Source of the DNA: Natronorubrum sediminis
GTDB lineage: Archaea > Halobacteriota > Halobacteria > Halobacteriales > Natrialbaceae
Direction of reading: 5' to 3'
Assembly (NCBI RefSeq): GCF_900108095.1
Contig: NZ_FNWL01000002.1
Span: 292,748 to 356,747 of the forward strand
Length of the DNA: 64,000 bases
Every line of letters begins with the position of its first letter. Position 1 is the first letter of the stretch. A model generated the notes under the pieces. The model ran no database searches. It saw only the letters and a program-made list of their open reading frames with translations, and was not told the origin of the DNA. A program made the translations under genes and the position numbers. Shown in pieces: positions 24,967 to 28,442 of the stretch.

Positions 24967-25037
24967 GGGACCGTGGGGTAGTGGTATCCTCTGCGGATGG
25001 GGTCCGTAGGACCCGAGTTCAATTCTCGGCGGTCCCA
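24967..25037 (+). tRNA. tRNA-Pro (GGG)
   Basis: A 71-base cloverleaf: acceptor GGGACCG/CGGTCCC with discriminator A, anticodon stem TGCGG/CCGTA closing the loop ATGGGGT with anticodon GGG, and T arm CCGAG-TTCAATT-CTCGG. The terminal CCA is not encoded and there is no intron. It marks the edge of an accessory-looking segment to its right. Confidence 0.95.
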
Positions 25038-25158
25038 CTCGAAATTATTGGAGTACTCAACTCTTAGAGCCTCAGTCCGGCGAAACGCCTGTAGGTCCTA
25101 TCCTCGCCTTTCCGATAATTCTATGTAGACGACAGGATACAGTCTCGGGGTGGTCTGC

Positions 25159-26062: not shown

Positions 26063-26254
26063 TTAGGTGCCGGTCTCGTCGAAGTCGAACGAGGGCTCCG
26101 GTAACGGTTCGAACTCCGTTGCTCCACACGAAGTACATCCATCACGACTTCCGATAGGCTGGATCGTTCCGTTCGGGAACTCGAGAGCGGCGAACACAGA
26201 TTCACACTCCACACACGTGGCCATCATGCGAGACGTTTCGTCGTCACCTCCCAT
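26063..26254 (-). CDS. Zinc-ribbon microprotein (paralogue A)
   Basis: 63 residues from the ATG giving MGGDDETSRMMATCVEC; upstream in-frame extension does not look coding. Zinc ligands are CVEC and CTSC, spaced 23 residues apart. Between them FPNGTIQPIGS matches SDGSIRPIGT in the neighbouring paralogue 225 bases upstream. It ends with an acidic Pro/Glu/Phe tail. Such one-ribbon proteins usually contact nucleic acid or a protein partner; nothing more specific can be said. Confidence 0.6.
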   Translation of the reverse strand: MGGDDETSRMMATCVECESVFAALEFPNGTIQPIGSRDGCTSCGATEFEPLPEPSFDFDETGT

Positions 26255-26479
26255 CGACTCCGCCTCAGAATCAATCAGAGAAAAATTCGCTGTGAGGACG
26301 AGAGGAGCACACTGTCGAGTGTCACTGAAGTAGTAACAGAGAGCGGTCGGCAAACGTGAGCACTACCTCGAGGGAAGTACACGATGGGCCAACTCGATGA
26401 CTCTACTGGGTACTGGGTGCGAACGCTGTGACGACACGGACGACAGGCACCGATACCGTGGTGTACGACCTCTTTCGAA

Positions 26480-26662
26480 TCACTCGGTCGAATCGGTTGG
26501 TACCGATTCCGGTGAGCCGATAACGTCGAACGAGTCGCCCCCACAAGAACAGTGTGTTCCGGTTCCAATTGGCCGAATCGATCCGTCGCTCACAATTCGG
26601 ACGGCAATGGCCCCGTTGCATCGACGGCAAATGGCGATCGATCGGCGACCTTTCACGGGCAT
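26480..26662 (-). CDS. Zinc-ribbon microprotein (paralogue B)
   Basis: 60 residues with a short basic N-terminus (MPVKGRRSIAI), ligands CRRC and CSCGG, and the shared core SDGSIRPIGT. It resembles paralogue A downstream on the same strand, and the pair looks like an old tandem duplication. It faces away from the Nmad3-like gene, with 145 bases between the two starts, so a shared divergent promoter region is possible. Confidence 0.6.
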   Translation of the reverse strand: MPVKGRRSIAICRRCNGAIAVRIVSDGSIRPIGTGTHCSCGGDSFDVIGSPESVPTDSTE

Positions 26663-26807
26663 GAACGGCCGTATTCCACACTATTATTTCAACCCTTCTA
26701 CTCCAGAACGATAGCTGTGGGGAGAGAAATAGTGGTGTGAGACCAATTCAGCGCCTGCCACACCGCGACCGGCGGCTTTACGTGCAATCCATCCTGACGG
26801 TAAGACA

Positions 26808-27662
26808 ATGACGGTCGTTCTCGCAGGGGTTGGTGCTGATAGTACGAATTTCGGTTCACTGGCACCGATATACGACGATGGCACCTTCGAGTACGTTCCA
26901 ATCCCCGAGAAGACACCCGAGACGGACGAAACTGAAACGCTCGGATCTTGGGCGTTGCGGACGACAGACCGAACAGCTGTGGATCTGACGACACGGATCA
27001 CCCCACAGCCTATCGGTGACGCAGACCGAACGGTTAGCGGTGACGCCCTCGAGTCCTGGCCGTTTCATCACGACCCGAACTTCGAGGCGCTAACGTACGG
27101 CGAACACCGAACGAGCGGCTACGTTTCCAGACTCCGGACGCTCGAGGCCGGCGACGTGGTAGGGTTTTACGCGGGGTTGCGCAAGCCCGATGGTGGGCGC
27201 GCACATCGGTACCTGATCGGTTACTTCACGGTCGAACGCGTCGACGTCGTGACGCCCGAGATGTCGGGCGAGACACGTGAGGAAATTCTCGGGAAGCACC
27301 CGGACAATGCCCATACCAAACGTGCTCGAGACGGAGAGTGCTATCTCGAGAAGCCAATCGTGCTCGTCGATGGCCGAGGGCCCGGCGGGTTGTTCGAGCG
27401 ACATCCGATTCGCCTCTCCGAGTACTACGTGAAAGAAGGAAATGAACGTGCACAGTATTATCTACGCGATTCGGTCGCTTCAGCGTTGAACGTCACCGAA
27501 GGGGGTGAGAATATGATGTACAAGCCCGCATATCGGTGTGACCTGACGGCCGATGCGTTTTACGATCGTGTTGGGACACCCGGCTCGCGGAGTGCAACCG
27601 ACGAACTGATCGACGGTTCGAACGATCCGATCGGCAAATCAGCCACAGAGCCGTCACGATGA
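26808..27662 (+). CDS. Nmad3-like putative nucleotide-modification protein
   Basis: 284 residues, soluble. The N-terminus MTVVLAGVGADSTNFGSLAP and the motif DDGTFEYVPIPE (residues 23-34) match the Nmad3 family (nucleotide modification associated domain 3), first described by comparative genomics around hypermodified-base systems of phages and bacteria. Further features are HHDPNFEALTYGEHRTSGYV, GDVVGFYAGLR and RYLIGYFTVERV, which resemble a ligand-binding alpha/beta domain. The biochemical role of the family is not established as far as I know. No base-modifying methyltransferase, TET/JBP oxygenase or glycosyltransferase lies within view. Family assignment is by motif recognition. Confidence 0.7.
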   Translation: MTVVLAGVGADSTNFGSLAPIYDDGTFEYVPIPEKTPETDETETLGSWALRTTDRTAVDLTTRITPQPIGDADRTVSGDALESWPFHHDPNFEALTYGEHRTSGYVSRLRTLEAGDVVGFYAGLRKPDGGRAHRYLIGYFTVERVDVVTPEMSGETREEILGKHPDNAHTKRARDGECYLEKPIVLVDGRGPGGLFERHPIRLSEYYVKEGNERAQYYLRDSVASALNVTEGGENMMYKPAYRCDLTADAFYDRVGTPGSRSATDELIDGSNDPIGKSATEPSR

Positions 27663-27920
27663 GTTGACTGGAATGTCCTGATCGGTGCTGTCCGGTTCGA
27701 TGGATTCGACCGTCGGACCCTGGACAATGACTTCACTCGAGTGGCCTTGCTAGGACGTCCCAATGAACGAGAAAACGACGACGGATCCAACAACGGTTTT
27801 CCGTACTGTGGGCCCTCATACCAGTCGTCGTCCACTACACCGGGGGACGATATCCGTACGATTGCTCGGCGTGTACTCGAACGGTCGGTTTCATGTAGTG
27901 ATAGATCATATCTCGTGGTA

Positions 27921-28442
27921 GTGACCGACGATACGGACTCCCGTCACGATCGAATTCAGACACATCCGACGCCAGGAAGTGGCAACTCCCTCTCTGGATG
28001 GTGGCGCAATCGTAGTCCACTCCGTCTGGCGATATCGTACGCCGTCGTCTGGCTCGTCCGGATCTCCCCGAGTCTCACCCTCAAACGATGGCTGCTTCGC
28101 CGACTGGGGGTAACGGTCGGGCCGGGAGTTTCCTGGGGTCTCGAGGCCACGCCGGACGTCTTCTGGCCGGAACTGATCACGGTCGAAGCCGAGGCGATCG
28201 TCGGATACGACGCGACGATTCTCTGCCACGAGTTTCTTCAAGACGAGTATCGGACGGGTGAGGTCCACATCGGTGAGCGCGCGATGATCGGCGCGGGCGC
28301 GACAGTCCTCCCAGGCGTCGAAATCGGTGCTGATGCGCGCGTTGCAGCGAACTCGCTCGTGACTCGAGACGTGCCGCCGGAGACGACGGTGGCCGGGGTG
28401 CCAGCCGAGCCGATGGGATCATCGAGCCGTGACGACGAGTAA
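27921..28442 (+). CDS. Hexapeptide-repeat acyltransferase
   Basis: Left-handed beta-helix O-acyltransferase of the CysE/LacA/NodL type, normally using acetyl-CoA. A hydrophobic helix (RLAISYAVVWLVRISPSL) is followed by hexapeptide turns: VGPGVSWGL, VGYDATILCHEF, IGERAMIGAGATVLPGVEIG and ADARVAANSLVTRDVPPETT, ending in AGVPAEPM. The open frame extends 180 bases upstream, but that part looks non-coding; GTG at 27921 (or 27915) gives about 173 residues. Acceptor substrate unknown, perhaps a sugar or lipid at the membrane. Confidence 0.75.
   Translation: MTDDTDSRHDRIQTHPTPGSGNSLSGWWRNRSPLRLAISYAVVWLVRISPSLTLKRWLLRRLGVTVGPGVSWGLEATPDVFWPELITVEAEAIVGYDATILCHEFLQDEYRTGEVHIGERAMIGAGATVLPGVEIGADARVAANSLVTRDVPPETTVAGVPAEPMGSSSRDDE

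Follow-up and report, generated by a model that had tools for sequence, protein, structure and literature searches.

The DNA analysed here, called the window in what follows, is a stretch of 64,000 nucleotides from Natronorubrum sediminis (contig NZ_FNWL01000002.1, positions 292,748 to 356,747). It contains a solitary Nmad3-family gene of the Natrialbaceae-type lineage (positions 26808-27662, + strand, 284 aa), arranged head-to-head with ribA, a lineage-specific gene coding for a single zinc-ribbon protein (26480-26662, - strand, 60 aa, CxxC...CxCG), and followed, beyond ribA, by the distal ribbon paralogue ribB (26063-26254, - strand, 63 aa, CxxC...CxxCG), whose ORF could be lengthened to position 26353 by using a TTG start. 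The start codons of ribA and Nmad3 are 145 bp apart, and the divergent intergenic region between them (26663-26807) carries a conserved promoter-like element, GACCGGCGGCTTTACG, some 40 bp ahead of the Nmad3 gene. An earlier note on this DNA had described two related one-ribbon genes on the strand opposite to Nmad3, and both are found as ORFs at the above positions and are paralogues. The same note had placed everything within 1.6 kb beside a tRNA: this is correct for the three genes, but the sole tRNA nearby, tRNA-Pro(GGG) (24967-25038, + strand), is located about 1.0 kb beyond ribB and is a neighbour, not a part of any unit.

Downstream of Nmad3 lies a gene for a hexapeptide-repeat acetyltransferase (27741-28442, + strand; PF00132, 2.4e-9). 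Its best NCBIfam match is NF058585, heptaprenylglyceryl phosphate O-acetyltransferase, at 2.1e-40 and under the cut-off of that model, and the product is possibly an archaeal lipid enzyme. The gene is kept downstream of Nmad3 in most Natrialbaceae, as a matter of synteny, and any functional link between the two is putative. The position occupied by window-type Nmad3 genes is between cbf5 and tRNA-Pro on one side and the acetyltransferase, a FAD protein and an arginase on the other. The spacing from cbf5 to Nmad3 differs among loci, ranging from about 1.6 to 8.7 kb. In Natronorubrum bangense, the chromosome and an 828-kb plasmid share, at 100% identity, a 20.8-kb block containing cbf5, cmk, DUF106, Nmad3 and arginase (loci L077 and L078), which is explained either by a recent large duplication or by an assembly error.

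The assignment of the larger gene to Nmad3, already proposed in the earlier note, is borne out by the Pfam profile PF18754, which is matched over residues 3-249 with an E-value of 4.6e-37 and a score of 128.4 bits (cut-off 27). The Nmad families were reportedly defined by Iyer et al. in 2013, and no functional study of Nmad3 was found in the open-access literature searched. The protein also matches phrog_34025, a PHROG without assigned function, at 2.5e-138; despite this strong match a viral origin was rejected, as no relative turned up among phage records, nor, by profile, among viral contigs. A relationship with a known anti-phage defence family was discarded as well, the PADLOC match being only weak (E=0.01). 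A search by sequence found no solved relative of Nmad3.

Counting both of the lineages described below, Nmad3 is present in 308 of the 392 genomes of the order to which the window belongs, usually in single copy. It is found in 116 of the 125 genomes of the family, Natrialbaceae, and is absent from the other 9; within the phylum, 45 of 247 sampled genomes are positive, 13 of them outside the order. Genes closely related to that of the window are carried by chromosomes and by two megaplasmids. When 74 Nmad3 proteins were placed in a tree, those of the Natrialbaceae type clustered with accessory copies from haloarchaea and a few proteins from MAGs (support 100/99), and the same split, drawn over long branches, excludes most other haloarchaeal Nmad3 as well as the Nmad3 of other orders. 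The other haloarchaeal lineage is located near nadE, an aldo/keto reductase (AKR), a hexapeptide acetyltransferase and a chlorite-dismutase/HemQ-like gene; apart from hexapeptide and DUF7577, the names given to these neighbours are the authors' own interpretation of the sequences. The acetyltransferases beside the two lineages were considered as one conserved partner and rejected, since their similarity is weak and mostly limited to the hexapeptide repeats. Of 40 loci belonging to the other lineage, 20 have, directly upstream of Nmad3 and in the same orientation, a gene for a membrane protein with a C-terminal ribbon, DUF7577 (e.g. L280:8070-9201). This ribbon belongs to a family unrelated to that of ribA and ribB; the recurrence of ribbon neighbours beside both Nmad3 lineages is only suggestive.

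Accessory relatives of the window gene show a different company. At three loci the Nmad3 gene overlaps or abuts the gene of a partner of about 290 aa, forming two-gene units (L311:7068-8713, L312:6598-8213 and L313:7228-8873), and at a fourth, L315, the partner is divergent. The partner in L311-L313 is recognised by no Pfam model; a profile comparison revealed a short motif resembling Nmad2 (26 columns, single-template E 1e-4, prob 57), which is suggestive of an Nmad2-like protein. A restriction gene of the GmrSD type and a GIY-YIG gene are found close to the L312 unit. Fusions of Nmad3 and Nmad2 within a single haloarchaeal protein were also found (L322:754-2085, L324:1051-2736, L325:96-1349). 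In L315:8976-11865 (the same locus as L127, from Haloarchaeobius sp. FL176), accessory Nmad3 and the Nmad2-like gene of about 290 aa are accompanied by a 5-hmdU DNA kinase (HMUDK; PF18723, 2.8e-69), making it a candidate DNA hypermodification or defence locus. Sampling of the order put the kinase in 5 of 293 genomes and Nmad2 in 4 of 243. The window genome contains no match to PF18723 or to PF18753 (Nmad2): the earlier remark that no modification enzyme is in view is right in this local sense, these two partners of an Nmad-type hypermodification system having been looked for in the genome and not found. The window protein matches the Pfam family over its full length but differs in being encoded by a stand-alone gene, in a genome where neither Nmad2 nor 5-hmdU DNA kinase was found.

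The fold of Nmad3 was predicted by AlphaFold (AF2) for the window protein (pLDDT 76, pTM 0.80) and for that of locus L131 (pLDDT 80, pTM 0.81), two different query sequences with overlapping alignments. When both models were used to search the PDB, the top matches were all PUA-like, including THYN1 with 5mC DNA, Thermococcus McrB-N with m5C DNA, EVE proteins, VcaM4I, ASCH and YTH. Scores are middling: the best Z is 7.1 for the window model and 7.4 for L131, and the best Foldseek E-values are 0.023 and 0.008, respectively. Comparison of a broad Nmad3 alignment with a profile of 22 archaeal EVE proteins gave an E-value of 6e-4 (prob 29), against E-values of at least 0.1 (prob at most 0.6) for eight control families, and the aligned region covers the GDxxxFY...GxxxV core. 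The likeness of Nmad3 to EVE/PUA-like readers such as THYN1, the EVE domain of VcaM4I, McrB-N and YTH would lie in the predicted fold, and in this core as seen by profile comparison. It differs from EVE in size, about 250 aa against about 145 aa, and in the conserved motifs GADSTN, HxDPNF and HRYLIGYF, which are its own. Pfam EVE (PF01878) is not matched by the window protein, for which Nmad3 alone was reported up to E=10. An EVE domain from one haloarchaeon, searched against PDB sequences, gave no match, and Nmad is absent from the main text of a 2020 survey of EVE domains. An EVE/PUA-like fold, kin to modified-base readers, is likely for Nmad3 on the strength of these models, whose scores are suggestive and not proof; binding of a modified base is a putative function, and the predicted fold would allow a role in base sensing.

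The two ribbon genes belong to a multi-copy family with 8 confident members in the window genome, two of which are those described here. Comparison with the sister genome G200 gave dN/dS values of 0.085 for ribA, 0.205 for ribB (both from small counts) and 0.174 for Nmad3; with these values, all three look like real genes. RibA and RibB match no Pfam or NCBIfam family above cut-off. Their knuckles, CRRC/CSCG in RibA and CVEC/CTSCG in RibB, carry a glycine on the second knuckle only, and metal binding by these zinc-ribbon proteins is putative. In the ribbon tree, which is coarse (about 50 columns) and limited to the ribbons of fetched loci, ribA falls in a clade of 13 rows (support 95/87) that spans several genera and in which all members are head-to-head with Nmad3. 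Members of the ribB-type clade (93/90) are mostly, not exclusively, near Nmad3. The slot upstream of Nmad3 hosts further separate lineages besides these two, namely those of L200, of L186 and of a co-directional Natronococcus type. The last, found at L164, L169, L171, L180 and L181 (genus g15; Natronococcus where named), lies upstream on the same strand as Nmad3 and forms a clade of its own.

In order to evaluate the linkage, 59 loci, each centred on Nmad3 and spanning at most 20 kb, were searched with a ribbon HMM, which was built from 19 other rows and partly from Nmad3-adjacent ribbons and therefore favours the latter. It produced 16 matches in 14 genes; all of these lie upstream of Nmad3, at a distance of no more than 3 kb, and the remainder of the 10 kb on either side gave no match. 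Ribbon-Nmad3 linkage in Natrialbaceae is beyond chance. A ribbon of the ribA/ribB family is present upstream of Nmad3 at 28 of 102 Natrialbaceae-type loci (16 ribA-type, 5 ribB-type only and 7 of other type) and is missing from the remaining 74. Both ribbons occur together in four genomes only (G000, G200, G235 and G380), and tblastn found none at 40 non-Natrialbaceae Nmad3 loci.

These counts bear on what had been made of the locus. The association of ribbons with Nmad3 stands as a linkage among the 59 loci, and fails as a general co-occurrence. The survey that the earlier note had proposed, of both ribbon genes within 2 kb of Nmad3 across haloarchaea, gave the 28 loci with any ribbon, the four with both and none outside Natrialbaceae, and the three-gene module does not survive it. 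By that note's own terms, Nmad3 homologues without a ribbon neighbour, here 74 of 102, refute a general unit. The initial observation is confirmed and its interpretation is supported in part: the pairing of ribbon genes with Nmad3 is real and probably old, and there is no universal three-gene machine. On the Nmad3 tree, ribA requires 8 gains or losses, reflecting either transfer or a pairing of long standing that was lost several times.

A promoter-like element similar to that of the window precedes Nmad3 whether a ribbon gene is present upstream or absent. A ribbon-dependent operator was rejected, as loci of both kinds have the conserved CGATCGGCGGCTTTA-type element. Because of this indifference to ribbons, the element is most likely the core promoter of Nmad3, and its persistence argues against a strict dependence on them.

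Parallels exist in known systems. The figure legend of the DefensePredictor study names, among the domains of validated E. coli anti-phage systems, TS, dNMP kinase, 5-hmdU DNA kinase and an NMAD (PMC13092281); in that legend the Nmad family is unspecified, and the passages leave unstated whether the parts belong to a single system. The accessory relative of Haloarchaeobius sp. FL176, beside a 5-hmdU DNA kinase, resembles this set, whereas the window Nmad3 has none of these neighbours. RibA and RibB resemble the C(P)XCG zinc-finger micro-proteins HVO_0758 and HVO_2753 of Haloferax volcanii in being shorter than 70 aa, in having four cysteines in two knuckles and in the many genes per genome (PMC11241148, PMC6562870). 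The latter have two C(P)XCG motifs, whereas RibA and RibB begin with a plain CxxC knuckle and are linked to Nmad3; some C(P)XCG micro-proteins bind other metals or none (PMC11241148). In Halobacterium salinarum, the small zinc-finger protein Brz is encoded by a gene adjoining bop and regulates it (PMC2253796). The likeness lies in a small zinc-finger protein gene beside a larger gene; brz, however, points the same way as bop, and regulation by it has been demonstrated, while ribA is divergent from Nmad3 and its regulatory role is putative.

The explanation preferred here, held tentatively and falling just short of probable, is that Nmad3 is a solitary EVE-like sensor of modified bases with a lineage-specific, dispensable ribbon companion. 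It would act as a reader or sensor that recognises a modified base in DNA or RNA and has no modification enzymes of its own close by. The target would most likely be a 5-substituted pyrimidine in DNA, because accessory relatives adjoin an Nmad2-like protein and, once, a 5-hmdU DNA kinase. RibA may be, with less confidence and by analogy with Brz beside bop, an auxiliary protein, regulator or adaptor, tuning or assisting Nmad3; it is conserved where present and lost or never gained in most relatives, hence Nmad3 works without it. The function of the ribbons may also be unrelated to Nmad3, since their presence is patchy (28/102) and the promoter-like element is independent of them. It is quite possible that the variable slot from tRNA-Pro to Nmad3, being tolerant of insertions, collects members of a big ribbon family with no functional tie to the gene, and hitchhiking in such a ribbon-rich slot is nearly as likely as an auxiliary role of RibA. 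Occupation of the stretch by several separate ribbon lineages, the patchy presence with 8 changes for ribA, the unequal cbf5-Nmad3 spacing and the possession by Nmad3 of its own promoter-like element, ribbon or not, would all be expected of a collecting slot. It accounts poorly for a ribA clade that is, in the sample, exclusively head-to-head with Nmad3 in several genera, for a ribA dN/dS below that of Nmad3 in the one pair measured, for equally open flanks that have no ribbons, and for the unrelated DUF7577 family abutting the other Nmad3 lineage.

The nature of the target divides the evidence further, as the Nmad2-like and 5-hmdU kinase context favours DNA, while the solitary, single-copy state leaves room for RNA. 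Many PUA-like proteins read modified bases in RNA, and YTH and ASCH domains, both among the fold matches of Nmad3, are known from RNA binding. A housekeeping translation factor reading a modified base in tRNA or rRNA, and having no part in DNA modification or defence, would be consistent with a gene that is usually single-copy (308/392 genomes, both lineages counted), that is often near cmk, cbf5 and tRNA-Pro in Natrialbaceae, and that occurs in a genome where no Nmad2 or HMUDK was found. Such a factor is nevertheless rather unlikely, given that among non-Natrialbaceae relatives of the window lineage there are accessory genes accompanied by Nmad2-like partners and by a DNA kinase, that the other haloarchaeal lineage is placed elsewhere (nadE, AKR, hemQ-like genes), and that 9 of 125 Natrialbaceae genomes do without Nmad3. 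An obligate unit in which a nucleotide sensor is joined by two ribbons that would bind DNA is very improbable: the sister genome G200 has kept all three genes, and G235 and G380 likewise have both ribbon types upstream, but both ribbons are confined to four genomes and 74 of 102 loci are devoid of any.

For the preferred sensor with a dispensable companion, the predicted EVE-like fold and the accessory relatives, with an Nmad2-like protein and a 5-hmdU DNA kinase as neighbours, turn Nmad3, present in most haloarchaea, from a name without function into a testable claim of modified-base binding. A bolder and distinctly doubtful extension is that Nmad3 is a so far unrecognised EVE-like reader of modified bases that, in haloarchaea, repeatedly adopted small zinc-ribbon partners, a soluble divergent RibA in one lineage and a membrane-anchored DUF7577 protein upstream in the other, as a two-component unit of surveillance or regulation directed at unusual bases, in organisms from which the synthesis of such bases is not known. 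Haloarchaea have dozens of single-ribbon micro-proteins each, and the ribA-Nmad3 pair offers a concrete system for what such proteins do for their neighbours.
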